From the IMG/VR virus record IMGVR_UViG_3300035670_000099, positions 29,612-93,611 of that record: a stretch of DNA of 64,000 nucleotides; one strand, written 5' to 3'. Both the position numbers and the translations under genes were made by a program. Shown here one piece after another: positions 39,878-61,605 of the stretch. The stretch is from a virus. The notes under the pieces are model-generated. The model did no database searches. It saw only the letters and a program-made list of their open reading frames with translations, and was not told the origin of the DNA. Position 1 is the stretch's first letter; the number at the start of each line of letters is the position of its first letter.

Positions 39878-42800
39878 CTATCTTTTAAGTATTCCACCCT
39901 GTCTTTGTTGACGTTGTATTTCTACTATTACTGCTGTTTTAATAGCATTCTGCATCGCATTTGGATCTATAGACGGTGATTTGTCACCATCTTGACTTTC
40001 AATCGTTATAGGCACATTTACAGTTGTATTTGTTGTTGGTTGATTAATATTTCCTATTCCAGGAGATGGGGGAATAACTCCACCACTTGCAAAGTTCATT
40101 ATGTTTCTTACTTTTAATTCGCTATTGCTTACGTTACCTCCCATGGCGTAATTCATTACAGATTCAATATTGTTGTTTTTAATTACTTTATCTAATCCCA
40201 TCGACTGGAACTTAGCATTGTCAGCAACACTCAACACTCTTTCTCCTGGCGTTAATACTGCTACTACTGGTGTTATTCCTCCATTTGCAGCTTTTTCTCT
40301 GACAATCGCTTCATTTAATGATTGAATTATGCCTCCACCAGCATAGTTCTTGATTACTCCTCCTTTGTATTGGCTGAATACTTCGCCTCCATCGTTGGCA
40401 CTTGGAACTTCGCCGCCGCTATTTCCTCCAAATATTCCTCCAATTGATTTGAATAGTGAATCAAGAATCCCTCCTGCTCCTACTAATGACTGCATTAATG
40501 ATTTGATAGCTATGTTAATGAGTCCGCTCAGCATGTTTCTAGCTAGGTTGTTTAAGACATCGTCTAGTTTTTCAACACCCATTATTACGTCTGTAAGCCC
40601 AGCTGATAAATCATTGATTAAACTATTTCTTATTAAATCTCTTATAGAAGCTACTACACTTTTGGCTGAATTTTCAATTTCTTTAATTTCTGCATCACGT
40701 TTTGCTTTAGCTTCTTCTTTTTTTTCTTTTTTTTGTTGATCGTCAAGATTTGGATCATTTTCTATATCTTCTTTTTCTTTTTCATATTCTTTTTCTTTTT
40801 GCTTTATTTTTATATCTCTTTCTTGAGCGTTAGCAACAAATTCGTTACCTCCTGAATTTCTGTAATTTTGTATTGTAAGTAATTTAGTTTGTATTTTTGA
40901 CTCTTCAAAACGTTTTGTTTGTTCGTAATCTAAATTTTCTTTTTGTATCTTTGCCAGTCCCTCTACTGCTCTTGTTAAACGATCTTTTTCTTCTTGTGGT
41001 AAAACAGCTGTTTGAATTTTTTCTTTTAAATCAAGTACTCTTAAATCAATATTTAATTTTTCAATAGTTTGATCTTTACCAAAAGCTTCAGCTTCAAGTA
41101 TTTTTAAATTTGTTTTATCTTTATTTGTTTGAATTTCATTTAATGTTGTTTCAATAATTGCCTGTGTATTGTTATTTTGTTTTTGTTTATCACGAATACT
41201 TTCGGCTTTTTTAACTTCTTCTGCTATCTTGTCTTGAGTTAGCCCAGAAGTACTCAAACTAACTTTGATTTTTTCTTGTAAAAATTGAATTTCAGCTTGC
41301 TGATCATTAATTTTTCGTTTTAATGCTGTAATATCATTTAAGGTAGTTAAAATTTTATCTTGTTTTTCTGGGTCTTGTTTAATTGATTCTAATTCTTTTT
41401 CTTTTTGATTTAATGAGCGTTGATAGCTTTCTAATGCTCTTTCAAGTTCCTGTTTTTGCTTTTCATCAGGAGTAACTTTTCTATTTTGTGACACATTTTG
41501 ATTAACTCGTATTCTAGCTTGATCTAATTTTTTTTGTAATTCAGGAAGTTTGCTATTAATAATATTTAACCTTTCTTGAGCTTTTGATTTTGACGATTGT
41601 AAAGCATCGTTCATTTCTTTTATTAAATTACTACCGTCATTTCTTGAAATAAGTCCTTCTTTAACTTGACCTTCTATAGTTTTTCTGTATCTTTCAAAAA
41701 TTGCATCAATTGATTTTAATGCGCTAAATAAATTTGTTTTTTCAGTAGTTAATTTTTTAACAGATTCTTTAGCAGAATCAAGATCTGATTTACTTTGTTC
41801 AATTATTGATTGTGATTCAAATGATGTATTATTATTTATGATTTTATCTAAATCTTGCGTAATTTTGTCTATTTCTGATTGCTTATTTGTAATTGAATCT
41901 TCTTGTAAAATATTATCTTTTATTTTTTTTATTTGATCTTCAAGATTCTGTCTCAATAATCTAGCATCTTCCAATTGCTGTTTTTTTCTTTCAGCGTCTA
42001 AAGCTTGTTGTTGTTGAGTAACTAAATCTTGCGAAATATTTAAAGGTTGATTTGAAACAGGTATTTTTATCGTTGAATTTGTAGATACAGATGTTAATCC
42101 TGGCATTGAACCCTGGAATCCTGTTGTTGGATTTGAATGTGAACACAAACATTTTGTTGCTGAATCTAAAATAGATATTATTTTTGTTACTAAAATTAAA
42201 AGTGGATCTCCTGTTGCTGTTGTATTTGAAACAGGTATTGCACTTGCTGTATTTGCAGGTATTGTTATTGCTGTATTTGAAACAGGTATTGCACTTGCTG
42301 TATTTGCAGGTGTTGTTATTGCTGTATTTGAAACAGGTATTGCACTTGCTGTATTTGCAGGTGTACCTGTTCCTTGCAATATTTTAACTATGTCTAAAAC
42401 AAGCTTTTTCGCTTCAATCTGAGAATTATTTAAAAATCTATTTGCATACTTTTTCTCATCTTCTGTTATTATTGCATTTAAAGGGGTTTTTGTTTTATCT
42501 GAAGGTACAGGTTTTCTTGTTTTTTGTGTTTTATTTGGAGGAGCAAAAACATCATCTAAAGATTCATCAAAAAGATAACTTAAAAAATTAAATACTTCTT
42601 TTTCTGTTATTTTTGTATCTAAAACAGGTTTTGTTTTTTGTGTTTTATTTGGAGGAGCAAAAAAATCATCTAAAGATTTATCATAAAGATAACTTAAAAA
42701 ATTAAATGCTTCTTTTTCTGTTATTAATCCTATTTTTTTCAAATTATCAATTATTGGAGGAGTAAGAGTAACAGAGTTTGTTGGAAGCACAAGTTCTTGT

Positions 42801-45800: not shown

Positions 45801-48800
45801 AAAATAATAGATGCCATTTTAGATAAAAACTGTATTATTGTGTGAACAGCAGTTACTGTAAATATTCCTTTAAAAGCACCACCTAAAAAGCTAAATACTG
45901 GACTTATAGATTTAGCAAATTCTTTAAAAGTATTTAAAACAGGCTTTAAAGAAATACTTAAATATTCACTAATAAAACTAAAAGCATTTGTAATGATTTT
46001 AAGTGGATTTCGTCCACCAAAAAATTCATTTAATCCATTATGAAAAGCTGCACCTGAAGCTATTCCAATGATTTTAAATGTAGATGGAAAACTTGTTTGA
46101 AGAACTGCTATCACCCCTTTTAAAGAAGTAGACGCTGCTAAAGAAGCAGTGATTCCTGAAAAAATAGCAGGAGCGATTAATAAAGCAATTCCAGCAATTG
46201 CTATACTAAGTATAATAGCTGCGGAAGTGACTCCTTTTATAGCATTTGTAAGAATAGAGAAGCTGTCAGCAATATTAATAATTGCTTTAGGTATTATTCC
46301 AATCAATAATTCAAAAGAATCAATAATATGTAGTACTGCTTCAGTTCCAATGTTTTGCAGTTTTGTCAATGTTATTGCCAACCCACTTGCATTTTGCGCT
46401 GAGCCTTCGTATCTAGCTCTTAATATTTTGCCAACATTAGGTAATATATCAGCAGAAAGAATAGCACCTTGGCTTGTTAAATCAATTAACTCAGGAATTG
46501 TTTTGCCTATAGCCTGAGCAAAAATTTCCATCGCTGGAGGGAATTTTTCTCCTAATTGCTGTCTTAATTCTTCCATAGATAACTTACCTTTCGCCAATAT
46601 TTGAGTATAAGCAAGTAATATGTAAGTTACGTCTTTTCCTGTGATACCTAATGCATTTATGGATGAAGCAATTCCTTTATATAAATCTTGAATACCTTGC
46701 CCTTCTAGTTTTGTATTTTGCGCAGCTGCAAGTAATTGTCCATAAGCTTCTAATCCATCTGATATCGATACGTTGTATTGCTTAGATGCGTTAATTGCAA
46801 AATCAATTTCTTTTCCGCTTTTTGCTTCTCCTACAATAGAATTAATTTTTCTCAACGAAGGCTCTAATTTTATTATTTCTTCTCCAAGAGCAATTATTTT
46901 ATCAGTCAAGATAGACATAAAATCAGAAATATTGTAAAAAACATTAGTTAATGGGGAGAAAGTATCATCAATAGTATTTCCTAATTCTATTAAAGGAGAA
47001 ATTGCATTATGAAATTCTTCTCCAGCAATTTTAGCTAATCCATTAATTTCAGTAAGTTTGTTAATACCTTCAGATAATTTTTCTGGATCTGGTAAACTAG
47101 CTTCTTTTATGTCATCTACTATCTCTGAATGAACACTTGCATCAGGAGCTGAAATAGCTTGAAATTCTGTATAATCTTCAGTCGTTACTAAATTTATTTT
47201 AGTTTCTTCGCTTTCAATAGGATCTGTATACTGCTCTATTTCAACTTGTCCACCTTCTAATAAGATTTTAAAATTCCTAAGCTTTATTTCTTTTTCTTCT
47301 TCTGATAAATCAGGATGCTCAATAATTGCTTTAATTTCTTTTCTTATATTTTGCTGTGTATATTGACTAAATTCTGCTTTAATATCAAATTTTTGTTCTT
47401 TTTTAATTTTTTTATCTAATTCTTTTTCTAATTTATTTTTTTGATTTTTTAATTCTTCAATTTTCTTTTTCGCTTTATTTTCTTCTTTTGTTATTTCATT
47501 GTTCAATGCTTCACTTCTCGCTCTTAACGATTGAATCATTTCTGCACTAGCTTTTTGATCTGAGCCTTGTATAATATCTTTTTCGTAATCACTCAAATCT
47601 TTTAATTTTAATGCTGCTTCTTTTCTTTTGTCAATTAATTCTTCTTCTGTATTTTTAATTGCATTTACTTTATCTTGTATATTATCAAGTTCTTTTCCAT
47701 ATGTTTCACTTAATTTTGCAAATTTATCTATTCTTGATGCGTTTTGGTAATCTTTTTCTGCTTGCATTGCTTCTTTTTCTGCTTGTTTTATTTCTTCTTC
47801 TAATCTTGCAATTGATGCTTTATTCTCTTTTATTTGTTCTTCATATTTTTGCTTTTGCTCTTTGCCTATTTTACCTTTTTGTCTGTTTGTACGTTCATTT
47901 TGAAGACTTTTAAGTTCTGCCTGTGTTTGTTTAATCTCTTTGTCGTCGCGAGTTTTTTGTTCTTTTGTATATCCTCTACGACGTTCGTCAAAATCAAGGC
48001 GATTCATTTTTTCAACCAATTTATCTCTTTTTTCCTGTATTTCTTTTCTTTCTTCAATGTCTTCAGGTAATGTACGTCCAAACTCTTCTTCTAGTATTCG
48101 GTCTTCATCCTCAAGTTTCTTAATTTCATTATTAATAAATTCATCAAAATTTTTATTTTTTATTTTTTTATTTTCTTTTAATTCTCGAAGTTTGTTTATA
48201 AGATTTTCTATATTTTCGTCTAATTCTTTTTCTTCTTTTACTGTGAAATTTCTTTCGTTTTTTGCGTTTACTTTTTTTATTTCTTCTTCAATGTTATCAA
48301 GCTCTGCTTCTAAATTCTCTATTAATTTTATCTTTTCTTTAAGGTTTTCTATTTTAGCAGTGTCTGGATCAAAAGAAGATTCTTCAAATTCTAAAAGCTC
48401 TCTAAGCTCTGCTTTGTTTCCAGTACTTAATTCTAAATGAAGTTTTTTTTCTGTTTCTTTTCTTTCTTTCTCATATCCTTCGAGTTCTTTTTTATATCCT
48501 CTTCTTTCTTTGCTTGTTACATCTGTTTTTAAAAATTCTAATTGTTCATTTTTTCTTTTTAAATCTATTATTTTGTCTTCATTTTCTGCTTTTATAGATT
48601 CTTTTTCGTCTTTTTTTGATTCTTTTTTTCTTTCCAATGCTTCTGTATCATTAAATCTTATTTGATTTTGTTTTTTTAAAATTTCTTTATTAACTCTTTC
48701 ATTCATGCTATTAAGTTCTGCTTCTTTCTTTGCTATTTCTTTATCTAATCGTTCAAGTTCTTTTTTCTTGGATTCCTCCGCAGTAGTTTCATTTTTTTTA

Positions 48801-51800
48801 AGTGCCGTTATTTCTTTATCTAATCTCAATAATTCTTTTTTTGATTCTAATTCTTTTTGTTTTATCTGTTTATTTATTTTTTCAATTTTAGCAGTTTTAT
48901 CTTTTTCTGAAATAGATAATTGTTTTTGTTCTTCTAATTTTTGTATTTCTTTTTCAACTTCTAGTGATTTTTCCCTTATTTTTTGATTTATACTTTGAAT
49001 TCTTTCTTTTTTGTCTTCTTCATTTAATTTTTTATTTGCTGAAATTTCTCTTCTTTCTTTTTCTAAATCACTAATTGGTTGTCTTGCTATTTTTTTCTGA
49101 TTTTCAATTTCTCTATCTCTTTCTTTTTTTTTCACTTCACTAAAAACAGTAAGTCCTTCAATTCTTGCTTTTTCTTCATTAAGTTTTGATACTGCTTTTT
49201 CAGTTTCTTTTATTTTTTTATTTTTTGAAGCTTGTTTTTCTAAAACAGCAGATGATGTATCATGACTAATGCTTTCTACTCTAATTTTTTCTTCTCTTAA
49301 ACCTGTTAACTCTGATTCAAGTTCTCCTTGCTTTTCTAATCGCTTATCTTCTAATTTCTTTATTTCTTCTCTAATTTCTGCCACTTTTTCGCCTGTTTCT
49401 TTAGCTTTCTTTATAATAATAGAAGGATTAATAGTATTTAAAAAAGCTTTTCCAATAGCATGTGTAACAACCGCTAATTCTGCTACAACCGAATTAGAAT
49501 AAGAGTGAACAACATTATATCCTACATCTCTTAATTCTGTTGATGGAGAAGCTATACCAAATACTTTTTTAATAATTTTTAAAACGCCCTCAAATGCATT
49601 TTTAATAACTTGATTATCTATTGAAGCAATTTGGCTTTCAAAAGTATCTACAATATTTTTACCAATATTTTTGTATGAATCATCAATAACATAATCTATA
49701 GGATTTTGTATTAAATTTTGTTTAATTGCTTTTGGAGTCAATTGAACAGCTTCAGCAATACCAGTTCTTTCACTAGCTAGATTTCTTTTTCCATCCTTAC
49801 CAACTTTTGGGTTGACAGGCGCTGTAGTAACTTGTAGTAAATAATTTGTTCTAGCTCCTGCATCATGAATTCCTGATTTTTCTAATTCTTTAAAATTAAC
49901 TAATTTATCTTTATACATTTTTGCTAATAAATTGTTAAATTCCTTTCTTGAGTATAAAGACATTTTCTCCCTAAGTTCTTTAATGTCTACTAACAATTCA
50001 TCATTGTCTTTATATTTTTTTATTAATGTTTTAAAATAAAAATCAAAATCAGATTGAAATTGTTTATATAATTTATCTAATTCTTCTTGAGAATATATTT
50101 TTTCAAATCTTTTAAGATTTGAAGTAATAGCTGGAATCCAGCTATCTTTACCGTCAAACAAAGCTGTGCCTTTTCCAGCAACAACTATTTCTGGAAGTGG
50201 TTTCATATGAATTGGTTTATGTCCTTCTGATCTTTTTATTTTTGCTGAAAGTTGAAGAAGTATTTTCATCAAACCAATCGAGTTATGATCTTGCTGGCTA
50301 GTTATTACAGAATTACGAGGAGCGTAACCTTTTTTAGCAAAATTAGGATGATTATGTGCCACAGAATAAAATATTTTGTCATTAGATTTTCTTGCAGCTT
50401 CATAAATTTTTAAAAAAAGTTTGTCACTATCAAATTGAACGTACTTTTCACTCCGTTCTTTAGCAATATTAAATTCTTCTATAATTTGTCCTCTAGAATT
50501 CATAATAATACCTATTACATCTTCTAATTTTTCATTTCTAATGTCATCTATTTTTTTACTATTGTAAGGATTTTGTATTTTATCTAAATTTTGTCTAGGA
50601 TTTATAAAATTTAATTTTCCAGCTTTAGAATAATCATCTAATTCTCTTTTCTGATTTTCATCTGTTAATAATTCTTCTCTTAAATGTTTATAAATTTCAA
50701 TATAATCTTCTAACTTTCTAAATTCTCCTAATTCAGGCTTTGCAATATTTAAATCAAATAAATGATCTGGTATATCTTTAATTTCTCCAAATTGTCTAAA
50801 TAAACCCTGAATAATGTTATCAATAATAAGCCGTCCGGCTTTAAATCCATTTTTAATCGAGTCAAAAAATGTTTTTGTAATATTTACTGCTACTTCTATT
50901 ATTTTTTTAGCTGGAGAAGCTATACCAAATACATCTTTAATACCTTGTAAAACTTTCTTAAATTCATCTTTAATAGATTCATCGTCTAATAAAGCAATTT
51001 GGCTTTCAAAAGTATCTACAATATTTTTACCAACATTTTTGTATGAATCATCAATTCCTTCAATAGCAGAAGCTTTAGATTGATTAATTTGCCTACTTTG
51101 CTGCGGAGTTGAAGAGTAAGCAGTCTTATAAGATTCTGATGTAGATTCAAGTTTGTTTTTGACATCAAGTACATTATCTTTTATGTATTTAGATAAAGTT
51201 TTTAGCAATGCAAAAACTTCTGCATCAATATTTAATGATTGAATTTTAGGTAAAATTTCTTTTATTTGTTGTATAAAAGTATCATTTACTTCTTTGTATA
51301 AATTAGTAATTTTTATAAAGTCATCTTGTAAAAACTGTTGATTAGGCGTGCTAGGTATATCAGCATCTTGCATTGATGCGACATTTGCTGTATTTTTAAT
51401 ATAATTATAAATAAAATCTAATCCTTGAGAAGATATTGCTTTATTAGCATCAGAGACATTATTTATTAATTCTTGTTTAAATGTGTCTATAAAACTAGTA
51501 TCAATTTTTTTACCACTATTAGCAATTTTATTAGTAATTGTTTTTTCAATTGCATTTAGCGCTTTATTAATGGATTCATTAATAGTAGCAGGATCAACGC
51601 CTCCTGTTTTTTGTATTGATTCAATGATTTCTTGTTGAATTTTTGTTAACTTTTCTTTATATTTAGTAGCAAGATTTTCAGGTTTTGTCGGATTAATTGA
51701 TTTAGCAATATTTTTAAGATTTAAAGATTGGTTTAATATATCATCTAATCTAGTAGAAGAATTAGTAGTTGGTAGCTTTGATGCAATTTTATTAATTGAA

Positions 51801-54800
51801 GCAATTAATTTTTTCTGATTAAAAACAAAATCTATAATTTTATTTTCAGTTTGTCCTAATCCTTTAAGTTCATTCTCAAATGCTTCTAAAACATCTAAAG
51901 CATCACTAGGATTAAGTTTGTCTAAATATATTTTTTGGAATTTAAGTATTACTGTTTTTGTTTTATTGATTATTTTTTCAATATTGCCTTTATAACTTCC
52001 GGATGTATCTTCTTTAGATAATTCAACAGCATTATCAATTATTGACGCAAATGATTTTGCCCATTTTATTACATCTTGTAAAATTATATTTTTATCTGTT
52101 ATAGAAGCATTAAGTATTGTTTCTAACTCTTTTAAGCTTTTTGCTGTTAAAGAATTAGCTTGTTTTTCTAATTCTGCAATTCTTTCATTAATATTTTCAA
52201 CCTCATTACTTTCCAAAGACATTTCTATCTGTGGGTTAGGTTGTTGAGTAACAATAAATTGTTTTTTAGACTCAGTTGATTTAGATGAATCGATTGTTTT
52301 TTTAGATAATTGGGATGAATCTTGCGTAACATTAGCATACTCTAATTGTTTAATTTGTGGTAATTCAATTTTTATATTATTAACTTTTTTAGCTGCTGCT
52401 TCTAATTTTTCCAAAGATTCCGTTAATTGTTTTATTAAATTATTTAAATTACTAAAGCTTTCTAAATTATATTTAATATTAATTTCATTATTATTTAAGC
52501 ATTTTTGAGTATCTTTAGCTGCCTCACAAATTAAATGAATATTATCCGCAATTTCCTTAGAATTAGTGCCAACAGATAATTTAAAGTTAAATTCATTTAA
52601 TGCTTGTTTAATTAAATTTAAAGATTCGTTGACAGAATTTAACAAACTTGCATCATCAATTTTTATTTCAGCTTTTAATAAATTAAGTTTTTTGTTAATT
52701 TTTTCTGCTAAATCATCAGCCGCAAAAGGAACTGATTTTAATGATTCTTCAAATTTACTTAAATCTACATTGATTTCAATTAAATTTACAGTATTAAAGT
52801 TTTCTAATATTAAATTAGAGATTTTTCTAAGATCTCCAGCTAAAGACTCTGCTTCTTTAACAGTTATCTCTATTTCATAATTTTTGTCAAAGTTGCTAAG
52901 ATTTTGAATTACATTAGATGTTAATTCTTGCAATTGTCTAAAAGAATCAATATTCTTGATATCAAGACTTAGATTCTCAAATTGATTTAAAAGATTTTTT
53001 AGAGATTCTATATTTCTAGCTATAGTAGTAGAATCATTTACAAATGTCTTGAGATCAGTCAAATAACTCTTGACTTGATTCATCCCTTGAGTAAAATTAA
53101 CTAAAGATGCGTCAACGTCTGCTAAATTAGATTTTACTTGTTCTTTTTGTGTTGAAGTGCCTGTTGATTCATTTAATGCTTGGTGTCCAGAAATTACATT
53201 TCTAACATTATCTGCAAGTGATGTTATTTCTTTCAATTTTTCAATTATTTGATTTGCTTGAATTAAGAAATTACTAGTATCATCAAGCATTCCAATTTTA
53301 ACTTTACTTAAATCAGAAATAGATATTATACTTTCCCTAAGTTCTTCTAACTTAGCTATAAAATCATCTACTACTGGAATGCCTTTTAAATCTATATTTA
53401 TGTCAGAATCGAAAGTATTCTTAATGCTTTTTGCGGTATTATCTAATAATTGTAAAATTTCACTTAAATTATTTAAATCTGGAGTTTGATTAATTACAAT
53501 ATTTAAAGGAGTTTTTAAATTAGCAGTTAAACTTTTAACATTTTTATCAATTTCTTTTACTGCTTCATTAACAGACTGTAAATGCGTTGTTATACTTGTT
53601 TGATTTACAGCTTCCAAATCTAATTTATATTGGCGTAATGCTTCCCCTATAGCTGATATACTAGAAGTCACTTTTTGTGCTGATTGTTCATCTACTCCAA
53701 ATACAACTTTATTATCTAAAACACATTGATTATTTTCTTTTACTACTTCACAAATACTGTTAACTTGGTTAATTATTTCATTTAAATTTTGCAAATTAAC
53801 ATTAATAGATAAAATATTATTGTTTAAAATACTCTGTAAATTTGTCAATAACTCTGTCAATCTTTCGATAGCAGATTGCCTATTGATTTGAAAATCTAAA
53901 TTAATTGATTGATTATTTGTTGCTTCTTCAATATTTAAATTTTGGAGGCTATTAATTTTTTGCTGTATATTTTCTGTTAAAGTATTGATTTGATTAGCAT
54001 TAATTTTTACATTAAATTCTTCTGCTAATTTATTTTTTAAATTATCTAATACTTGAATTAAATTGTTTAAACTATTTTGAGATCTGTCAGCAGAGGATTG
54101 AATATGTCCTAAAGACTCAACGGCATTTCCTATCTGTAAATTCAAAACTTTGCTATTAACAACTTGAGTAACAGAATCAAGTAAAGAATTAACTTCATTT
54201 AATACTGTATTTGAAACATTAAAATCAATAACAACTTTATTATCATTTTTATTTATTTCATCTTGGCATTCTTTAATAATTGCTTTAATTTGAGATTCGG
54301 CAGCAGAATTAACTGCAACTTGTATAGTAATGTTTCCACTAATTTGTAAAGAATTTAATGTTGCTACTAAAGCATTAATTTGCTCTCTAAGAGCATTTGG
54401 ATTATCTCCACTAAAAGAAATATTAATACTAGATAAATTATTTTGGTTAAGTTGAATTATTGCATTAATTAAATTGTTAACAGATTCAATCCCGCCAGAA
54501 ATTTGAGTATCATCTAATTCTGGAACAGCTATTTTTATAGCAGAAAGTGCATCAGCGCCTTCTCTTAATTGATCAGAAATAATTTGAATTTTTGAAGTAA
54601 TATTTACTTCATCTAAATTGGTTAAATCAATTTTAGCAATAAATACATTAGAATTAGCAGATTCTATTGCTTGCTTATATGTATCTAATTTTAATATTAT
54701 ATTGTTTATTAACAAATCTAAAGAAGAGATTGAATTATCGTCAAAATTTATTTTAAATACATTATCGTTTAAATACTTTTTAATTCCTTTTATTGATTCA

Positions 54801-57800
54801 AGTATTTTAGTAATCTGCTCAATTGCTTCTTCAGGATTATTTACAGATATATTATATTCTAAATCATTGTCATCAATTAATTCTTGTAGATTATTTAAAA
54901 GATTTAAAAGTGCTGCCCTAGCATTTTCTGATTCAGGATTAAGTTGTACATTCAATGCTTGCAATTGAATGTTATCCAATACATCACTAACAGCGTTTAA
55001 AGGATTATTTATTTCTGTAGTAATATTAATTTTTTTATCATTAATTTCTTGAATTTTATTATTTACAAAATTACTAAAATCGTTAATTTTATTTTCTGCT
55101 GCTTTTAAAGATTCTTCAAAATTTTCATTATTAACATCTAAGTTAGAAATAATATTAAATAATACTGGAACAGATGCACTTGCTTTTAATTCATTAATTT
55201 TTTGAGTAGCATTTTCTATTGCTTTAATACTAGATACTAACTCTGTAGTATCAATAGATAAATTATTTTTTAAATTATTTATTTTAATTAAAATTTCATC
55301 AATTTTTAAAATTAAATTTTCATAATCAGAAAAATTAACATCTATATTATATTCTAAATCTAAAATTTGTTTAAGATCGTTTAATATTTTTGTTAAACTA
55401 GCAATTTTTTTATTATTTTCTTCAACAGCATTAGCATTAGCAGTAGCAGTAGCGGTAAAATTAGAAAAGTCACCATCGACAAAAGCAGCAATTCTTATAT
55501 CAGAAAGATCCGCAATAGTTCTTTGAATAAGAGATTTAAAACTTTCTAAGTTAGCTATAGAAAGAGTAATTCCTACAGGAGTTTTTTGTAATTCAGATCT
55601 AAATCTGTTAACTATATCTTGAGATTGCTCTAAAACATCAGCAGAAAGGTATGCTCTAATTTCTACAACTCCACTTAAAGCTAATCCAGCTAAGCTATTA
55701 TTGATTTGTTCAATATTTTCAGAATAATTAGATATATCAGATCTAAAGAAAATATTAATTTCTACTGTTTTATTATTATTTAAATTCTCAATAGTTTCTG
55801 TTAAATTATCAATGGATTGTTTAGTAGAATCTAAATTTTCTGTATTAACAGGTCTTATATTAAGTGTAATATTTTCCAGCTCTTGTTTTTTTGCTTTTAC
55901 AACTTCACATACTTCGTTAATAGCATTAGAAATATTATCTTTATCAATTTCATTAAGATTTATTCTTACAACTAAAGTATTGCTATCTAAATACTGCTGA
56001 GTCTGTTCTACTTGATTACGTACTTCAGAAGTATTGATTTCTATTGGTTTATTATTAATTTCTGTATTAATTTCATCTATTTTAGATTCGATACTATTTT
56101 TAAATGTATTCAAAGAATTTAATAAATCAGCACCAATATCTTCTGAAGCATTAATGTTGATGCTTTGAGTTTTAGTAGATTGCAGTAATTCTAAAGAATT
56201 TATTACATTATTTATTTGTTCAACAATTTGATTTAAATTTTGATTCTGTGTTGTTATCGAAATTTCTACATCTTTAACTTCAATAAGTTGATTTAATAGA
56301 TTTCTTAAATTATTAATATCTTCAATCAAGGAAGAAGTATTTAATTCATTTATATTAAGATTGATAGAATTATTAGAAAAATATTCAATAGCATCATTTA
56401 GGATATTCTTAACTCCTCCTAACTCAGTAACTAATTTTTGCGCATTAACGTCAAAATCAACAGTAGTTTTTTGATTATCAACTTCGCTAGATTGAGTAGG
56501 AGTAGCATTTAATGATTTTAATTTAACTTGTATATTTTCTATTGCAGTATCTAATTGAGATATAGCATTTTCGATTGAACTTTGATTTATCGATAAAGAT
56601 ATTTCATTATCTAATTTTCCTTTAATTTCATCTAACTTTGTGCTTAAATTATTTATAGAAGTTTGAGCTAAATTACTATCATTAGAAGTGTCATTTAATG
56701 CTGCATTTAATTTATTTATTTCCTCTTCAACTTGAATAATAATATTTCTTAATGAATTTAAGTTATTTGATATATTGTTTATATTTACGTAAGATTCTTC
56801 TGATATATTAAATTGAATTTGTTTTTCTGATAAATTATTTAAAATACCATTTAAATTATTAACAATATCGCTAAAACTATCTTCTAATTCTTTTAATTTG
56901 TTTTTAATATTAGTAACAACAGCTAAATCTGCATTATCTGAAACTTCACTAAAAATAGTAGCAAAACTTGTTTTTATTTCTTGAATATCATTTCTTAAAA
57001 TATTAATAAAATCATTATTTATTTGTATTTGAATAGTTTTATCATTTGTTGAAATAGCTTCATCAAGGTTAAGATTGCTTAAATTATAAACAATATTTAC
57101 TGCGTGAGGATTTTGTTTTATTGCATTTATTCTTTGCTCTATATTTGTTAAATTAGTATCATTTACCTTAATATCTAATATTAAATTATTAACAATATTA
57201 AAAATATTTGTTAAATCTTGTATAAGTTTCTTTACATTAGCCTGCGAATCTGGATTTATTTGTAAAGAAATCGCCGAAGAACTGTAATGCGCTATTAAAT
57301 TATTTAGATCGTTTTTTAAGCCTGATAAATTATTTTTTAAATTATTGATATTATCTAAATTTACAACAGGAGTAATTCTACCAGAATCAAAAGTATTTAT
57401 TGTTTCCAATAAAACGTTTTCGGCTTTTTCTAAATCATCTTTTATTTCTTCAATATTAGATGAATCAATTAAAACTTTTGCTTCAATTGTTTTATCTTTG
57501 GAACCAGAAGATTGAGATTCTCCTTTTCCTTGGATAATAGCTTTTCCTCCTGTAAAGACTCTTCTTAGTCTTTCTATTGATGTATTTATGCCAGATCTAA
57601 TAGCTGGTCCAAGACTTTGCGTTATTTGCCCTAATTTGCCAAAGCTATTTAAAAGCAAATTAGGAAGTTGATTTAATCCTAGCGAATTTGCATTTCCTTC
57701 TCTATTTTCTTTGCTAGAACGATTAGATGCAGTTTTTTCTTTATTGCGTTCAACAATACTACTAGTAACTTGCGACGTGTTAGATGATTTAGTTGTTACA

Positions 57801-58585
57801 TTTTGCTGAATATTAATATTTTGTTTTTCTGTAAATGCTCTGCGCAATGCATTACTAGTAGACGATTTAATAACTGATTCAATTGCTGACGATGTATTTG
57901 TTAACCCATTTCTAATTCCTTCCGTTAATCCTAACTCAATTGATAAAGAGACTAATTGTTTTGTTTTTTCTACGCTATTTTTATCAATTAAAAAAGATAC
58001 TGGTATTTCATAAGAATTAGAAGTTAAATCATCTAATTGTTTATTTAAATTATCTAATGCAGAAGAATCAACTCTAGGCTTAATAGGATTTGAAGCAAAA
58101 TAATTATTAACTTCTTTAGAATGTTGTACTTTTTTGTCTAAATGTTGATTTAAATCATCTAATTCAGAATCGTCTACAGTTGCCTTAACTGCAACGAGAG
58201 AGCCTAACAAAGTAAATGATCTTATTCTTTTTTCTAAATTATTTAATTCAGAATCATCTACATTTACTTCGATATTAACAATTTTGTTTATCAAAGCAAG
58301 CGACTTTATTCTTTTTTCTAAATTATTTAATTCAGAATCATTTACTTTTATTTTTATTGAATTGTCGTTATAATATTTAATAGTTGTATCTAAATGCTTT
58401 TCTGCGGTTTTTAATTCTTTTGCTAAATTATTAAAGCTTGCTTTATTTGCAGAAATATTAGCTTCTAAATCTAATCCAAGAGAATCTTTAGATTTACTTA
58501 TATTTGATTGAATATCTTTAATTTGTTTTTGAAAATTACTTGTATCTAATGACAGCTTAACAATTAATTCACCTAATGTAGTCAT
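39878..58585 (-). CDS. Giant tail tape measure protein (6,235 aa)
   Basis: One uninterrupted 18.7-kb gene. The N-terminus (MTTLGELIVKLSLDTSNFQK) is typical of tape measures. Residues to about 2,400 are helical, Asn/Ile-rich repeats; near the start DDSELNNLEKRI recurs. A JAB-like metalloprotease segment lies near 2685-2800 (H2744-N-H2746, S2763-Q-Q-D2766). Two related FGIASP blocks occur near 2510-2560 and 2965-3015. A very K/E-rich coiled coil spans about 3060-3800. The tape-measure domain (KLSMEELRQQLGEKFPPAME) lies near 3905-4050, followed by hydrophobic segments (about 4100-4310) usual for membrane insertion. The C-terminus includes a 17-residue repeat linker. At about 0.15 nm per residue it would set a tail of up to about 0.9 micrometre. 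Confidence 0.9.
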   Translation of the reverse strand: MTTLGELIVKLSLDTSNFQKQIKDIQSNISKSKDSLGLDLEANISANKASFNNLAKELKTAEKHLDTTIKYYNDNSIKIKVNDSELNNLEKRIKSLALINKIVNIEVNVDDSELNNLEKRIRSFTLLGSLVAVKATVDDSELDDLNQHLDKKVQHSKEVNNYFASNPIKPRVDSSALDNLNKQLDDLTSNSYEIPVSFLIDKNSVEKTKQLVSLSIELGLTEGIRNGLTNTSSAIESVIKSSTSNALRRAFTEKQNINIQQNVTTKSSNTSQVTSSIVERNKEKTASNRSSKENREGNANSLGLNQLPNLLLNSFGKLGQITQSLGPAIRSGINTSIERLRRVFTGGKAIIQGKGESQSSGSKDKTIEAKVLIDSSNIEEIKDDLEKAENVLLETINTFDSGRITPVVNLDNINNLKNNLSGLKNDLNNLIAHYSSSAISLQINPDSQANVKKLIQDLTNIFNIVNNLILDIKVNDTNLTNIEQRINAIKQNPHAVNIVYNLSNLNLDEAISTNDKTIQIQINNDFINILRNDIQEIKTSFATIFSEVSDNADLAVVTNIKNKLKELEDSFSDIVNNLNGILNNLSEKQIQFNISEESYVNINNISNNLNSLRNIIIQVEEEINKLNAALNDTSNDSNLAQTSINNLSTKLDEIKGKLDNEISLSINQSSIENAISQLDTAIENIQVKLKSLNATPTQSSEVDNQKTTVDFDVNAQKLVTELGGVKNILNDAIEYFSNNSINLNINELNTSSLIEDINNLRNLLNQLIEVKDVEISITTQNQNLNQIVEQINNVINSLELLQSTKTQSININASEDIGADLLNSLNTFKNSIESKIDEINTEINNKPIEINTSEVRNQVEQTQQYLDSNTLVVRINLNEIDKDNISNAINEVCEVVKAKKQELENITLNIRPVNTENLDSTKQSIDNLTETIENLNNNKTVEINIFFRSDISNYSENIEQINNSLAGLALSGVVEIRAYLSADVLEQSQDIVNRFRSELQKTPVGITLSIANLESFKSLIQRTIADLSDIRIAAFVDGDFSNFTATATANANAVEENNKKIASLTKILNDLKQILDLEYNIDVNFSDYENLILKIDEILIKINNLKNNLSIDTTELVSSIKAIENATQKINELKASASVPVLFNIISNLDVNNENFEESLKAAENKINDFSNFVNNKIQEINDKKINITTEINNPLNAVSDVLDNIQLQALNVQLNPESENARAALLNLLNNLQELIDDNDLEYNISVNNPEEAIEQITKILESIKGIKKYLNDNVFKINFDDNSISSLDLLINNIILKLDTYKQAIESANSNVFIAKIDLTNLDEVNITSKIQIISDQLREGADALSAIKIAVPELDDTQISGGIESVNNLINAIIQLNQNNLSSINISFSGDNPNALREQINALVATLNSLQISGNITIQVAVNSAAESQIKAIIKECQDEINKNDNKVVIDFNVSNTVLNEVNSLLDSVTQVVNSKVLNLQIGNAVESLGHIQSSADRSQNSLNNLIQVLDNLKNKLAEEFNVKINANQINTLTENIQQKINSLQNLNIEEATNNQSINLDFQINRQSAIERLTELLTNLQSILNNNILSINVNLQNLNEIINQVNSICEVVKENNQCVLDNKVVFGVDEQSAQKVTSSISAIGEALRQYKLDLEAVNQTSITTHLQSVNEAVKEIDKNVKSLTANLKTPLNIVINQTPDLNNLSEILQLLDNTAKSIKNTFDSDINIDLKGIPVVDDFIAKLEELRESIISISDLSKVKIGMLDDTSNFLIQANQIIEKLKEITSLADNVRNVISGHQALNESTGTSTQKEQVKSNLADVDASLVNFTQGMNQVKSYLTDLKTFVNDSTTIARNIESLKNLLNQFENLSLDIKNIDSFRQLQELTSNVIQNLSNFDKNYEIEITVKEAESLAGDLRKISNLILENFNTVNLIEINVDLSKFEESLKSVPFAADDLAEKINKKLNLLKAEIKIDDASLLNSVNESLNLIKQALNEFNFKLSVGTNSKEIADNIHLICEAAKDTQKCLNNNEINIKYNLESFSNLNNLIKQLTESLEKLEAAAKKVNNIKIELPQIKQLEYANVTQDSSQLSKKTIDSSKSTESKKQFIVTQQPNPQIEMSLESNEVENINERIAELEKQANSLTAKSLKELETILNASITDKNIILQDVIKWAKSFASIIDNAVELSKEDTSGSYKGNIEKIINKTKTVILKFQKIYLDKLNPSDALDVLEAFENELKGLGQTENKIIDFVFNQKKLIASINKIASKLPTTNSSTRLDDILNQSLNLKNIAKSINPTKPENLATKYKEKLTKIQQEIIESIQKTGGVDPATINESINKALNAIEKTITNKIANSGKKIDTSFIDTFKQELINNVSDANKAISSQGLDFIYNYIKNTANVASMQDADIPSTPNQQFLQDDFIKITNLYKEVNDTFIQQIKEILPKIQSLNIDAEVFALLKTLSKYIKDNVLDVKNKLESTSESYKTAYSSTPQQSRQINQSKASAIEGIDDSYKNVGKNIVDTFESQIALLDDESIKDEFKKVLQGIKDVFGIASPAKKIIEVAVNITKTFFDSIKNGFKAGRLIIDNIIQGLFRQFGEIKDIPDHLFDLNIAKPELGEFRKLEDYIEIYKHLREELLTDENQKRELDDYSKAGKLNFINPRQNLDKIQNPYNSKKIDDIRNEKLEDVIGIIMNSRGQIIEEFNIAKERSEKYVQFDSDKLFLKIYEAARKSNDKIFYSVAHNHPNFAKKGYAPRNSVITSQQDHNSIGLMKILLQLSAKIKRSEGHKPIHMKPLPEIVVAGKGTALFDGKDSWIPAITSNLKRFEKIYSQEELDKLYKQFQSDFDFYFKTLIKKYKDNDELLVDIKELREKMSLYSRKEFNNLLAKMYKDKLVNFKELEKSGIHDAGARTNYLLQVTTAPVNPKVGKDGKRNLASERTGIAEAVQLTPKAIKQNLIQNPIDYVIDDSYKNIGKNIVDTFESQIASIDNQVIKNAFEGVLKIIKKVFGIASPSTELRDVGYNVVHSYSNSVVAELAVVTHAIGKAFLNTINPSIIIKKAKETGEKVAEIREEIKKLEDKRLEKQGELESELTGLREEKIRVESISHDTSSAVLEKQASKNKKIKETEKAVSKLNEEKARIEGLTVFSEVKKKERDREIENQKKIARQPISDLEKERREISANKKLNEEDKKERIQSINQKIREKSLEVEKEIQKLEEQKQLSISEKDKTAKIEKINKQIKQKELESKKELLRLDKEITALKKNETTAEESKKKELERLDKEIAKKEAELNSMNERVNKEILKKQNQIRFNDTEALERKKESKKDEKESIKAENEDKIIDLKRKNEQLEFLKTDVTSKERRGYKKELEGYEKERKETEKKLHLELSTGNKAELRELLEFEESSFDPDTAKIENLKEKIKLIENLEAELDNIEEEIKKVNAKNERNFTVKEEKELDENIENLINKLRELKENKKIKNKNFDEFINNEIKKLEDEDRILEEEFGRTLPEDIEERKEIQEKRDKLVEKMNRLDFDERRRGYTKEQKTRDDKEIKQTQAELKSLQNERTNRQKGKIGKEQKQKYEEQIKENKASIARLEEEIKQAEKEAMQAEKDYQNASRIDKFAKLSETYGKELDNIQDKVNAIKNTEEELIDKRKEAALKLKDLSDYEKDIIQGSDQKASAEMIQSLRARSEALNNEITKEENKAKKKIEELKNQKNKLEKELDKKIKKEQKFDIKAEFSQYTQQNIRKEIKAIIEHPDLSEEEKEIKLRNFKILLEGGQVEIEQYTDPIESEETKINLVTTEDYTEFQAISAPDASVHSEIVDDIKEASLPDPEKLSEGINKLTEINGLAKIAGEEFHNAISPLIELGNTIDDTFSPLTNVFYNISDFMSILTDKIIALGEEIIKLEPSLRKINSIVGEAKSGKEIDFAINASKQYNVSISDGLEAYGQLLAAAQNTKLEGQGIQDLYKGIASSINALGITGKDVTYILLAYTQILAKGKLSMEELRQQLGEKFPPAMEIFAQAIGKTIPELIDLTSQGAILSADILPNVGKILRARYEGSAQNASGLAITLTKLQNIGTEAVLHIIDSFELLIGIIPKAIINIADSFSILTNAIKGVTSAAIILSIAIAGIALLIAPAIFSGITASLAASTSLKGVIAVLQTSFPSTFKIIGIASGAAFHNGLNEFFGGRNPLKIITNAFSFISEYLSISLKPVLNTFKEFAKSISPVFSFLGGAFKGIFTVTAVHTIIQFLSKMASIILSQAIPAVIKLGSAFFSTFITIGLTSIKKIKISIGSLAKGAASLAITFGTLFLSAADFSVPFKEGFNDISKSIENAANAFRDFNNELKKTKGNKPNFSAYQSIPSKGFQLNPFVVIGVQGEEESYVEDERRKRINYAAHLVKSGKMSPEQLKDYYDEQVERGNLGSTYQPLTWFDKGYGSFKRQVDIGANDENKPKVYTKNQIKIAKELGMYGTIVRDTDYDALESVKMFLNNMLELKDSIEKDLFKEVEDNIKELKKYNQDKDSNFSQDKTKINKLINKQKELSEKRQKAFESNDEKEIDRIDKEYSNIEKEKQSIISRYSSKYKELENVKETLIKQKELAEKLFPGFKVGSFFDELIKKIDTFSKQYKDLLPKGAIPEIESRYTKIVSNLNKFTKAYDEYLQELEIESNEKEAEIYKNLDKGTISQSDADIQLLNLKINQLNKTFDAIDNEIKTKTQALNLLNSIPSSELGESDKERIEELQKEINKAKVDRSKASVDISKANLDLRNKIKDAKKQIEDYNLAVQKQIEDARFELRKAVIELNNRFSGKTLKLLLKGMGDNELTQLAQVVSEFITEINELALEKIQQEQKALEDARKDIEDKRKLSEAIQLLGKSANENVNAIKNFAQQSTATFKKLFEESFKELERLRKEMKFTNKQVSYIEESVDKTGKSMNRLGSGVLSLNRNLSDSVYKFALIKNYLSNIGSSKIVTISVQSNRQNTPNNNLPGNILPSIRPSHVSNPSSIQIANNNTGFNQGVKIASASLNLIGYERGNTSSSFNSSNRLNPKDYINFRKNNENEIALGFLKPKSKPLRYQAIPHDDNPTLEERLKTEEAMYNRLRNISNYRSSPINPNVEQIFLNVIQRSSYNQIVDFLNNPKYNNAKTTNYGMPEKEKRHFTLEAVKKRNEEREKLNFGDHAKNFGSRIPVIGGVIGDVVGTPLNILENYFLNKQESNRIPQHSKQIVPTLRKLNLRSVNSLDSQSILKLGNELQKAGLTSKQELVLPTNSVTLTPPIIDNLKKIGLITEKEAFNFLSYLYDKSLDDFFAPPNKTQKTKPVLDTKITEKEVFNFLSYLFDESLDDVFAPPNKTQKTRKPVPSDKTKTPLNAIITEDEKKYANRFLNNSQIEAKKLVLDIVKILQGTGTPANTASAIPVSNTAITTPANTASAIPVSNTAITIPANTASAIPVSNTTATGDPLLILVTKIISILDSATKCLCSHSNPTTGFQGSMPGLTSVSTNSTIKIPVSNQPLNISQDLVTQQQQALDAERKKQQLEDARLLRQNLEDQIKKIKDNILQEDSITNKQSEIDKITQDLDKIINNNTSFESQSIIEQSKSDLDSAKESVKKLTTEKTNLFSALKSIDAIFERYRKTIEGQVKEGLISRNDGSNLIKEMNDALQSSKSKAQERLNIINSKLPELQKKLDQARIRVNQNVSQNRKVTPDEKQKQELERALESYQRSLNQKEKELESIKQDPEKQDKILTTLNDITALKRKINDQQAEIQFLQEKIKVSLSTSGLTQDKIAEEVKKAESIRDKQKQNNNTQAIIETTLNEIQTNKDKTNLKILEAEAFGKDQTIEKLNIDLRVLDLKEKIQTAVLPQEEKDRLTRAVEGLAKIQKENLDYEQTKRFEESKIQTKLLTIQNYRNSGGNEFVANAQERDIKIKQKEKEYEKEKEDIENDPNLDDQQKKEKKEEAKAKRDAEIKEIENSAKSVVASIRDLIRNSLINDLSAGLTDVIMGVEKLDDVLNNLARNMLSGLINIAIKSLMQSLVGAGGILDSLFKSIGGIFGGNSGGEVPSANDGGEVFSQYKGGVIKNYAGGGIIQSLNEAIVREKAANGGITPVVAVLTPGERVLSVADNAKFQSMGLDKVIKNNNIESVMNYAMGGNVSNSELKVRNIMNFASGGVIPPSPGIGNINQPTTNTTVNVPITIESQDGDKSPSIDPNAMQNAIKTAVIVEIQRQQRQGGILKR
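42222..42374 (-). repeat. Three 51-bp direct repeats inside the tape measure gene
   Basis: Copies begin at 42222, 42273 and 42324 and encode a 17-residue unit around ANTASAIPVSNTAIT. Near-identical DNA indicates recent expansion. A flexible Pro/Ala/Thr linker; copy number could vary between isolates. Confidence 0.8.
42510..42735 (-). repeat. 114-bp direct repeat inside the tape measure gene
   Basis: Two copies offset by 114 bases encode 38 residues each (FNFLSYLFDESLDDVFAPPN and FNFLSYLYDKSLDDFFAPPN). In-frame duplication adjacent to the 51-bp repeats. Confidence 0.75.
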
Positions 58586-58629: not shown

Positions 58630-60033
58630 TTAAAATTGAAAATAAGGTTTTTTTTCTAATAAACTATTTTGAGCTTTAGCTAGCTCTATACCAAGATAAG
58701 CAGCATGACTTGCCAACATAGAAGGATTATTGACTAAAATCTTGCTGCAAATTAAATTGCAAGATATGCCAGAGTATTTAGCTATTTCTTCTCCATCCTT
58801 AGTCACGTGAGTTACTAAAATCCTATTGCTATCAACTTCGATAACAAAATTTCCAACAGGATCGTCAAAAACTTTTTGATTAGCAATCCGCTGGTAATAA
58901 GAACAAATAACATCATCAGCAGCAACCCAAGAGTTTTCATATATATGTGCGCTTTCACTAATAATCGTTAAAGAGCCTATTTTAATGTCTGGGTAAAAAT
59001 TTTTAATTTGACTAAAAATATAATACTGCAATCGCCTTAGCCCCATGGCATTAGATACCCAAGCAGAAAACATGTCATTACTTCTAAAAAGTGCTGTTAA
59101 GTAAAATTGATTATTATATATTTTTATCCAAATATGATTTAAGCATGGTGGAGATTGAGAAAAAATATCAGTATTAGCATCCCAAAGATTAATTACTAAT
59201 CTGTTAGAGATTTGACTTGTTTTAAGCATGTTAATAACATTTTCAATCTGATTAACACCAAAATACTCATTAATCCTAGTTCCATAGCTGTTGCTGTTAT
59301 CAGCAATGCATAATATTTGCTGCACATATTTGTTTATAAACTCTCTGCTTGTCGGTAAATAATTTGGTTCTGGGAATATTAATTCTTCTGGTTCTTCTGT
59401 AATAATAACAGTAAAATTTAATAATTCTTGCCACAAAATATTGCTTGAACTAATGTCAATTTTACCAAGACTTCTAATTCTATGCAATATTTTTACCCAA
59501 GCTTCATGAATAAATTTTGATTGTATTCTATGTCCATTTAATTCTCCGGAAACAGTCGAGACAATTGGTTTGTTTTCTGGAAAAATCATTGGAGAAGCCC
59601 ATAAATTACAACTTTTACCGCTAAATGATTTAACAGCTTTTACTAAAGAAAAAATATCTTCAAATTTGTATGATTGAACAGAAAATCGTAAGCAATCAAG
59701 AGCATTTTTTGGTATTTCAATATCAATATAAGCTGCATGTTTAGATTCTACTATCCAAGCATTTCTGCCGCCACTAGTCTTTCCTAGCCTTACTCCATTA
59801 GCAAAAAAATCCAATAAGCAATCTATAGAGCCTGAATTTAAATCATATTTACTAGCTTTTAACAAAAATAAATATCTAATATTTGTATTAGCTAATAAAT
59901 TACGTATTAACAAATTAATTCCAGGAGTGCATGAATATAATTCTTTTAATACAAAATAATTATTTGCTTCTAAATGTTTAGAGACATTAGAAGCAATTGT
60001 CCATCCTGTTGCTATAGCAATATGATTACTCAT
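58630..60033 (-). CDS. Thymidylate-synthase-like protein with N-terminal MtrA/DUF4346-like domain
   Basis: A 467-residue protein. Residues about 1-120 (IATGWTIASNVSKHLEANN, GINLLIRNLLANTNIRYLFL) resemble DUF4346, related to methyltransferase subunit MtrA. The C-terminal half has thymidylate synthase landmarks: SPPC with C297 as the likely nucleophile, LFRSNDMFSAWVSNAMGLRR corresponding to the RSxD...N motif, and ESAHIYENSW corresponding to HxY. This layout recalls archaeal and cyanobacterial synthases. It could make dTMP or, as in phages with hypermodified thymine, hydroxymethyl-dUMP. The ATG overlaps the upstream stop by 8 bases; upstream in-frame codons lie within the Csf3-like gene. Confidence 0.7.
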   Translation of the reverse strand: MSNHIAIATGWTIASNVSKHLEANNYFVLKELYSCTPGINLLIRNLLANTNIRYLFLLKASKYDLNSGSIDCLLDFFANGVRLGKTSGGRNAWIVESKHAAYIDIEIPKNALDCLRFSVQSYKFEDIFSLVKAVKSFSGKSCNLWASPMIFPENKPIVSTVSGELNGHRIQSKFIHEAWVKILHRIRSLGKIDISSSNILWQELLNFTVIITEEPEELIFPEPNYLPTSREFINKYVQQILCIADNSNSYGTRINEYFGVNQIENVINMLKTSQISNRLVINLWDANTDIFSQSPPCLNHIWIKIYNNQFYLTALFRSNDMFSAWVSNAMGLRRLQYYIFSQIKNFYPDIKIGSLTIISESAHIYENSWVAADDVICSYYQRIANQKVFDDPVGNFVIEVDSNRILVTHVTKDGEEIAKYSGISCNLICSKILVNNPSMLASHAAYLGIELAKAQNSLLEKKPYFQF

Positions 60034-60649
60034 AAGAAACATTATGCAATGGCATGTAGCATCGTGCTTGATTATCTGGTAAATAAGATGGGCATCTCCA
60101 ACCCCAATCCTTGACTTTATAATCACACAAAAATATTCGGCTGTCTTTTTGCAAATAAATACAAGGAACAGGACGACTAAGTTTGTCATTTTTCCATAAA
60201 TGATAATCGTCGATTAGCTCTTCTACTAACCAGCTTTTAATACCAGAATAAAACATAGTTTTATATTTTCCTAAAAAATGAATATATTCTAGCAATTCTT
60301 CTAATTTTTGCAAATCTGCTCGACAATACCAAGTAATTTGAGATGTTACTCTCCATGGTTTTATAGTACCATTGCCAAGATTATGATTTTTCTGTAAAAA
60401 ATAATACGGACTACTAGTTTTATAATACCAACTTGTCTTATCATTAGATAAATACCCAATTTCTAATGGAATATTCTCTTTTATGATTATTAGCCCAGCT
60501 TTAATTTGTTCCATATCAGGGTTTTGTTTAAGCATTTTAGCATTAAACAAAATTTGATGAGACAAAATTGCGTCAAAGCTAGGATTCCAATCATTACTTA
60601 ATGCGACAGGATTGGATAAAAAGGCAACTATTTTAATGTTAGAAATCAT
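60026..60649 (-). CDS. Csf3/Cas5-like RAMP protein
   Basis: A 207-residue protein. The N-terminus (IKIVAFLSNPVALSNDWNPS, then FDAILSHQIL) fits the start of Csf3-type RAMPs. FLGKYKTMFYSGIKSWLVEE (125-144) sits where the glycine-rich loop GK+xxGxGxVxxWxVE is expected, followed by LWKNDKLSRPVPCIYL and WGWRCPSYLPDN-ARCYMP, like the family's RPxP and YRPPYW...C endings. These are resemblances from memory, not a search. No other cas gene and no CRISPR array are in the window. It overlaps the thymidylate-synthase-like gene by 8 bases and may act with it. Confidence 0.5.
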   Translation of the reverse strand: MISNIKIVAFLSNPVALSNDWNPSFDAILSHQILFNAKMLKQNPDMEQIKAGLIIIKENIPLEIGYLSNDKTSWYYKTSSPYYFLQKNHNLGNGTIKPWRVTSQITWYCRADLQKLEELLEYIHFLGKYKTMFYSGIKSWLVEELIDDYHLWKNDKLSRPVPCIYLQKDSRIFLCDYKVKDWGWRCPSYLPDNQARCYMPLHNVSYE

Positions 60650-60657
60650 GATTAAGT

Positions 60658-61335
60658 ATGAATTACCATAATATTTTGAATCTGTGTCAATACTGCGCTA
60701 AAGTCTATGTGACCGAATCTATCATAGAGCATTCAACTGATACTGAAGTTTTAATAGATAAACAGCCTGACAAAATTATTATAGCATTTTGCGGAAGTGA
60801 ATCTATTGTAGATTGGAAGCAAAATATTGATTTTATATTAAGACCATTTCCTCAAGATAGAAAATGTAAAGTGCATTCTGGTTTTCTAGAATGCTTTTTA
60901 TCTGTTAAAAACAAAATCAATAAGATTTTAGAATTAATTCAAAATGAAAAACTTCCAGTTTTCTTTACAGGACACAGCTTAGGAGGTGCTATAGCTACTT
61001 TAGCGGCTGTTGATGCAAAAATGTCTTATCAAAATCTTAATATTACTTGTGTTACTTTTGGATCTCCAAAACCAGGTGACAAAAATTTTTCTCTGCTTTA
61101 TTCTAATCTAGGAATTTCAACATATAGAGTAATTAATTCTAATGATATTGTCCCATCACTGCCAAGATGGTGGCAAGGAAATTATTATCACGTCTGCCCA
61201 GCCTATCAAATTGGATTTGCAAATATTTTCTCCGCTATTAAATTAACAAATAAAATCAAAAACCACTATGTAAGTAAATACATAGAGGTTTTAGAAAAAC
61301 AATTATCTATTAACCATTTTGATTTTACGCGTTAA
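60658..61335 (+). CDS. Class 3 lipase (alpha/beta hydrolase)
   Basis: A 225-residue Lipase_3 protein. FFTGHSLGGAIATLAA holds the nucleophile S107, SNDIVPSLP the acid D163, and KNHYVSKYIE the likely H203. IIAFCGSESIVDWKQNIDF precedes, as in the family. There is no signal peptide. A role in lysis or in altering host lipids is possible. The ATG is only 8 bases from the divergent Csf3-like ATG, so its promoter must lie inside that gene. The 3' end overlaps the convergent TPR gene by 33 bases. Confidence 0.85.
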   Translation: MNYHNILNLCQYCAKVYVTESIIEHSTDTEVLIDKQPDKIIIAFCGSESIVDWKQNIDFILRPFPQDRKCKVHSGFLECFLSVKNKINKILELIQNEKLPVFFTGHSLGGAIATLAAVDAKMSYQNLNITCVTFGSPKPGDKNFSLLYSNLGISTYRVINSNDIVPSLPRWWQGNYYHVCPAYQIGFANIFSAIKLTNKIKNHYVSKYIEVLEKQLSINHFDFTR

Positions 61336-61605
61336 AGCTAATTCTTTTTTTGCTTCACGATTATTAGGATCAATTCTTAAAATAGCCTTAAAATCTGCTA
61401 TCGCTTCATCGTAAAAAAGTATTTTACGATATAATAACGCACGAATTAATAGACTTTCTATGTCTTTGGGATTTCTATCTATTAATTCACTGTATTTATA
61501 AATTAATAAAGACTCATTGTTTTGCGATTGTGCGGGCAAACAATTCAACCCAAGTAAAATTGAAATAGCTATTGTCAGCTTTACGCATTGTCTTGTTAAT
61601 GTCAT
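61303..61605 (-). CDS. Small secreted TPR protein
   Basis: A 100-residue protein. Residues 1-about 27 are a signal peptide (LTIAISILLGLNCLPAQSQ) with probable cleavage after AQS. The rest contains about two tetratricopeptide units (YDEAIADFKAILRIDPNNRE). The signal sequence style and TPR type are common in cyanobacteria, so a host-derived gene is likely. Its own near-consensus promoter suggests expression apart from structural genes. Function unknown. Confidence 0.75.
   Translation of the reverse strand: MTLTRQCVKLTIAISILLGLNCLPAQSQNNESLLIYKYSELIDRNPKDIESLLIRALLYRKILFYDEAIADFKAILRIDPNNREAKKELALTRKIKMVNR

Follow-up and report, generated by a model that had tools for sequence, protein, structure and literature searches.

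Introduction

Type IV-B CRISPR operons borne by viruses are already known, as in the Fuxiviridae of Bathyarchaeia (PMC10848311), and the same holds for anti-CRISPR proteins that mimic Cas5: AcrIB3, a phage Cas5 homologue devoid of an 18-residue hook, displaces Cas5 in the type I-B system (review PMC13131331). The rare recruitment of Cas proteins by viruses as inhibitors has been called an enigma in a 2024 review (PMC11656645). In the type IV-A3 system, interference was annulled by a set of arginine substitutions in the thumb of Csf3 (R102A, R104A, R105A and R110A; PMC11519345).

Here we describe a csf3-derived gene, deprived of both the thumb and the accompanying csf operon, in a stretch of viral DNA of 64,000 nucleotides (the window), corresponding to positions 29612–93611 of a 93,611-bp virus record. 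A search of the open-licence literature retrieved no report of a lone phage csf3, of a thumbless paralog or of an anti-type-IV protein. Within that literature, the thumbless phage Csf3 paralog is new, and so is the pattern of its occurrence in sister phages with and without type IV-B operons.

Results

A member of the type IV Csf3 family in the window phage

Among named viruses, the window phage, a cyanophage, is closest to Cr-LKS4 and CrV-01T, both Cylindrospermopsis phages, with CrV matches for 49 of its 96 predicted proteins and a terminase 71% identical. An exceptionally long tape-measure protein (6235 aa) is predicted on the minus strand at 39878–58585 of the window. The position of the csf3-derived gene, of its relevant elements and of the flanking genes is reported in Table 1.

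Table 1. Features of the csf3 locus (positions are those of the window).
Feature	Position	Strand	Description	Basis
Lone csf3-derived gene	60026..60649	(-)	Thumbless Csf3 paralog, 207 aa, ATG start	ORF, profile, fold
Retained C-terminal Csf3 motif	60041..60106	(-)	Residues 182-203, WGWRCP...NQARCYMPLHN	Motif comparison
Degenerate RAMP G-loop	60230..60271	(-)	Residues 127-140, GKYKTMFYSGIKSW	Alignment
Short linker replacing the thumb hairpin	60338..60406	(-)	Residues 82-104	Residue count vs operon Csf3s
Thymidylate synthase	58630..60033	(-)	467 aa, C-terminal pterin-binding DUF4346 domain; true start 60033	Orthologues
Class 3 lipase	60658..61335	(+)	Divergent neighbour, kept beside csf3 in G002 and G011	Domain, synteny
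Small secreted protein	61303..61605	(-)	Travels with the cassette	Matches to TPR proteins adjoining the G002 and G011 cassettes

The csf3 product matched the PADLOC profiles PDLC01727 (Csf3_0_IV; E=7.9e-25) and PDLC01498 (E=5e-12), as well as the PHROG family phrog_34599 (E=8e-18). The match with NCBIfam TIGR03116 was sub-threshold (E 0.022; 14.4 bits, with 140 required) and the Pfam search of this product gave no match. The AlphaFold (AF2) model had a pLDDT of 90.2, and the best three Foldseek matches in the PDB (7xg1_B, 8rc3_F and 8rc2_F) were all type IV-A Csf3 proteins with probability 1.0, a Cas5-like RAMP fold being present in the product. In a library of viral structures only one close match was obtained, a protein of 240 aa and 30% identical, whose length and identity are consistent with the CrV homologue. 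The resemblance is far beyond chance: the ORF is a member of the type IV Csf3 (Cas5) family, and the gene is of Csf3 descent.

An earlier note on this DNA had proposed a Csf3/Cas5-like RAMP protein, a proposal to be dropped if the product fell in a non-RAMP family or lacked the RAMP fold, and it is borne out by the PADLOC, AF2 and Foldseek results. The C-terminal WRCP...ARC pattern on which that proposal was built is indeed a genuine Csf3 motif, common to the family in the form W-G-W-R-x-P...N..(R)C.MP. The Gly-rich loop that had also been reported is instead absent, both glycines of the RAMP loop being replaced in the window copy.

Absence of a csf operon and of a CRISPR array

Model searches for Csf2, Csf1 and Cas6 gave no match in the 93.6-kb record, in the related phage G002 or in two complete Cylindrospermopsis isolates, and each model detected the genes in positive controls. 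Likewise, the CysH model found no match in the window-phage genome or in the two complete isolates, while detecting its positive controls, and a cas11 family HMM, able to find cas11 in operon loci, identified none among the ORFs of the window and of the left end. The window-phage record is linear and measures 93.6 kb, compared with 101–104 kb in the isolates, and a few kb may be missing, an eventuality against which the complete isolates guard. From the Csf2, CysH, Csf1 and Cas6 searches of the record, the window csf3 is not part of a csf operon, and the csf1, csf2, cysH and cas11 genes required to assign the window phage to type IV-B were not found in it.

No CRISPR array was detected in the window or in the left end, nor any Rfam match. 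The repeats of the window fall in coding repeats and were rejected as CRISPR-like arrays. Type IV-B loci are usually without a CRISPR array, so that this absence is not discriminating. The gene had been described as lone and without an array, and on these searches the description is correct: it is a phage gene for a solitary homologue of a Cas5 subunit. Pattern-limited scans of GTDB genomes found no relative of the window csf3.

Arrays annotated by the depositors are found in lone-csf3 phages, namely CrV-01T (L095, 89192–89521) and Cr-LKS4 (L096, 87526–88160 and 88835–89093; record coordinates), and CrV has further 36-nt repeat pairs at 71244, 88233 and 91317. Since one 'spacer' from the arrays of Cylindrospermopsis phages matches dispersed places within the same phage group, part of these arrays may be dispersed repeats. 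A 668-aa 'transposase' with a Cas12f1-like TNB domain is encoded in a Cylindrospermopsis phage (L006, 18846–20852, minus strand) about 3 kb from the lone csf3 of that phage. In L007 (G000:C1), a ribonucleotide reductase ORF of 1809 aa (10301–15730) contains an intein splicing domain and several LAGLIDADG domains, and two identical 23-nt direct repeats, 41 bp apart, lie within a non-coding gap (1565–1651).

Lone copies have lost the thumb and the G-loop glycines

Csf3 relatives were gathered from IMG/VR, plasmids and phages. Six lone rows (the window, L015, L003, L019, L020 and L023, the last nearly identical to L003), to which the copy of the sister phage G011 was added later, were compared with 28 Csf3 proteins of other type IV loci, in which csf2, csf1 or cysH neighbours are recognisable with few exceptions. 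The conserved interval between P81 and W107 spans 25–31 residues in the lone copies versus 54–74 in 28/28 operon Csf3s. With 25 residues in this interval, the window copy has no thumb hairpin. In its G-loop, F and S take the place of two invariant glycines, both of which are present in all 28 operon copies and neither in the lone ones. The lone G011 copy is likewise without thumb and without G-loop glycines.

The segment missing from the lone copies comprises a stretch rich in K/R residues and a T..G..K motif, whose G..K part is common to type IV-A Csf3 and even to Cas5c, and it aligns with R110, T114 and K119 of the K. pneumoniae IV-A3 Csf3 (8rc2_F), which are part of the thumb. The importance of the thumb is known from type IV-A only. 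The missing thumb is not an artefact of the alignment, because it is also evident as a simple residue count, and an origin from alignment or assembly errors was rejected since the same condition recurs in two genomes of isolates and in several contigs from metagenomes. The lone copies have therefore lost both the thumb and the G-loop glycines.

Neighbouring genes and overlap with the thymidylate synthase

The thymidylate-synthase ORF as called (519 aa) is over-extended: its orthologues in L015 and G011 begin at the methionine at 60033, and the overlap with csf3 is thus of only 8 bp (60026–60033) and not of 164 bp. An overlap between the two genes had been noted before and is real, but an overlap of merely 8 bp is ordinary translational coupling. 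The suggestion of a nucleotide-processing role keeps some slight support; however, given the size of the overlap and a Cylindrospermopsis phage that keeps csf3 but has no such thymidylate synthase, the two genes were rejected as a nucleotide-metabolism pair.

Pairing of csf3 with the thymidylate synthase and the lipase was observed in three phages, at two genome positions. When the window phage was compared with G002, most proteins were more than 90% identical, with the exception of csf3 (55%), thymidylate synthase (65%), lipase (53%) and also tail-fibre-like proteins. The csf3-thymidylate synthase-lipase cassette is divergent, as would be expected of exchanged or fast-evolving accessory genes.

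Such a fixed pairing might indicate that an old Csf3 was recruited as a stand-alone protein for a task of the phage itself, based on RNA or protein binding and with no link to type IV, for example the regulation of late or nucleotide-metabolism transcripts. The maintenance of csf3 in genomes without any other csf gene and the loss of thumb and G-loop are in line with this exaptation. It agrees less well with the Cylindrospermopsis phages that keep csf3 and dispense with the thymidylate synthase and with the retention of the Csf3-specific C-terminal motif; moreover, the canonical nucleic-acid-handling elements are precisely what went missing. Overall, we regard it as unlikely, although deserving serious consideration.

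A sister phage carries both the thumbless gene and a type IV-B operon

The sister phage G011 (IMGVR_UViG_3300042908_001045), whose terminase is 85% identical and in which 81 of 104 predicted window-phage proteins were matched, has a thumbless csf3 71% identical to the window copy. Also in this phage the gene overlaps the thymidylate synthase by 8 bp and adjoins the lipase, at a genome position that differs from that of the window phage. In addition, G011 holds a complete csf3-cysH-csf1-cas11-csf2 type IV-B operon (L084, 10491–14194), about 1.5 kb beyond its csf3-thymidylate synthase pair, and the Csf3 of this operon is canonical, with thumb and glycines present. The operon lies between the orthologues of two genes that are adjacent in the window phage, there 38 bp apart, and its flanks have diverged too far for the exact junction to be located. 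As G011 has both genes and the operon site of the window phage is empty, the thumbless csf3 is a dedicated separate paralog, maintained irrespective of the operon. Neither csf3 nor csf2 was seen in a second relative, G012, the contig of which (67.5 kb) lacks the tape-measure end, so that absence from this phage does not follow.

Further contigs bear type IV-B operons as well, in one case next to capsid genes; on the contig of L018, phage head genes adjoin the operon. Type IV-B systems are usually without Cas6; a Cas6 gene is included in the operons of L016, L017, L018, L022, L029 and L004. The type IV-B locus of L032 (1544–8665) comprises three csf3, two cysH and two csf1 genes. In L026, a possible mini-CRISPR array made of three repeats of about 30 nt spaced 61 bp (12133–12285) lies some 3 kb away from a type IV-B operon.

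The presence of the gene together with a complete operon in G011, and of several csf3 copies at L032 loci, could be explained if the thumbless Csf3 were an alternative working subunit, giving a type IV-B complex with a different guide or target preference in association with Csf1, Csf2 and Cas11 from the phage's own operon, as in G011, or from a co-resident element. Most of the lone carriers, however, have no operon, and the combined loss of the thumb and of the loop glycines goes against a working guide-holding role, making this explanation quite unlikely in our opinion.

Phylogeny and selection

All lone copies grouped in one clade with support of 100/100 (98–99/99 after cutting the trait columns), nested within the Csf3s of type IV-B operons, including those of a Gloeobacter plasmid and of several viral contigs. 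The unusual amino-acid make-up of the lone rows is a caveat to these trees. A single origin as an artefact of the trait columns was rejected, since the clade persists when those columns are cut. Because the trait changes arose once, the contrast between lone and operon copies counts as a single evolutionary event. The lone csf3 genes were not joined to the G011 operon copy.

The position in the tree also bears on the possibility that the protein inhibits another class 1 system of the host, either type I or type III, by using its Cas5-like fold as a mimic. AcrIB3 offers a precedent in type I-B, and type I and III systems are common in cyanobacteria. Yet type IV-B Csf3s are the nearest relatives of the lone copies and the searches gave no type I Cas5 as a closer match, so that we consider such an inhibitor very improbable.

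Between the window and G011, dS of the lone csf3 was 0.84 and dN/dS 0.19, compared with a dN/dS of 0.20 for the linked thymidylate synthase and of 0.09 for the terminase, csf3 being looser than the latter. Frames were intact in all lineages carrying a lone csf3, with dN/dS values of 0.07–0.2. The ORF is a real gene under purifying selection, and this largely refutes the idea that a type IV-B operon was lost and left the gene behind as a non-functional relic, an idea to which a genome without the operon and the location of the G011 operon at another site could have lent weight. In G011, the thumbless gene lies beside the thymidylate synthase and outside an operon provided with its own csf3, and the trees do not unite the two copies. 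The dN/dS values, the frames preserved intact across several distinct lone genes and the coexistence in G011 led us to reject the remnant of a decayed operon, and a relic seems to us hardly tenable.

Discussion

The lone csf3 product resembles the Csf3 of type IV-B operons (Gloeobacter plasmid L004; IMG/VR L016, L021 and L024) in its identity of 25–36% over the whole length, in the Cas5-like fold, in the SSP motif and the C-terminal W-G-W-R-x-P..N..C.M motif, and in its well-supported nesting among them. It differs in that the lone gene is without the csf1/csf2/cas11/cysH operon, the thumb hairpin and the G-loop glycines. As in the Fuxiviridae, type IV-B genes are found in a virus genome, but in place of a complete system the window phage has a modified Csf3 alone, to which G011 adds a full operon.

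A phage-borne solo protein of the Cas5 family is also what characterises AcrIB3, whose primary study is reportedly that of Katz et al. (Nature 2024), and other phage solo Cas-homologue anti-CRISPRs. Both in AcrIB3 and in the window protein an element is missing, which for the thumb is one whose need in the complex is known from type IV-A3 alone (PMC11519345). Unlike AcrIB3, the window gene is of type IV lineage and a candidate inhibitor only, it has lost the thumb and not a Cas8b-binding hook, and in one phage, G011, its thumbless homologue is accompanied by a complete operon. The RNA anti-CRISPRs (Racr) are similar as solitary CRISPR components proposed to form non-productive complexes, but they consist of repeat RNA, whereas the component of the window phage is a protein.

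By analogy with AcrIB3, we propose that the thumbless Csf3 is a defective end-capping subunit acting in trans on type IV-B complexes and conferring immunity or modulation in phage-phage conflict, a reading to which we assign a probability approaching an even chance. The protein would no longer serve as the guide-holding subunit of a complex of its own. Having kept the Cas5 fold and the Csf3-specific C-terminal region, it could, in the simplest reading, still occupy the Csf3 position, and the parts it has lost correspond to those gripping the target DNA and the guide-target duplex in type IV-A. Made in the infected cell, it would sit at the guide 5' end in lieu of the normal Csf3, in type IV-B complexes specified by a rival phage or plasmid or, where present, by an operon of the same phage. 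The outcome would be a capped, non-productive or altered complex, with the protein acting in trans as an immunity or modulator subunit.

The loss of the nucleic-acid-gripping parts suggests that the thumbless Csf3 might jam or modulate rival machines; on the other hand, a protein that took up some new and unrelated role might also have shed its RNA-handling parts. That the thumbless Csf3 enters complexes, that it inhibits them and that phages are in conflict through them is what we infer, and the choice of the target complex and the alternative between its inhibition and its re-tuning are likewise matters of inference. We know of no type IV-B activity that could be inhibited. As G011 has the thumbless gene together with an apparently intact operon, a plain type IV-B poison would need timing, self-insulation or regulation, and this arrangement speaks for plain poisoning no more than for a function in immunity or as an off-switch. 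The role of anti-CRISPR or Cas5 mimic envisaged by the earlier note is retained as the leading reading, at the level of a proposal by analogy. More broadly, type IV-B operons might serve related cyanophages as weapons or control devices in their conflicts, with the thumbless Csf3 as the corresponding immunity or off-switch subunit both in phages that have the operon and in those that do not. We hold this wider scenario to be possible, if on the doubtful side.

For type IV-B systems, the thumbless paralog represents a natural dominant-negative candidate together with a testable model of conflict. The system is tractable, as a homologue is present in Cr-LKS4, a phage with an isolated host. If the wider scenario is true, this protein would be the first candidate anti-type-IV-B protein and would provide a genetic handle on type IV-B activity, adding a type IV example to the viral recruitment of Cas proteins as inhibitors.
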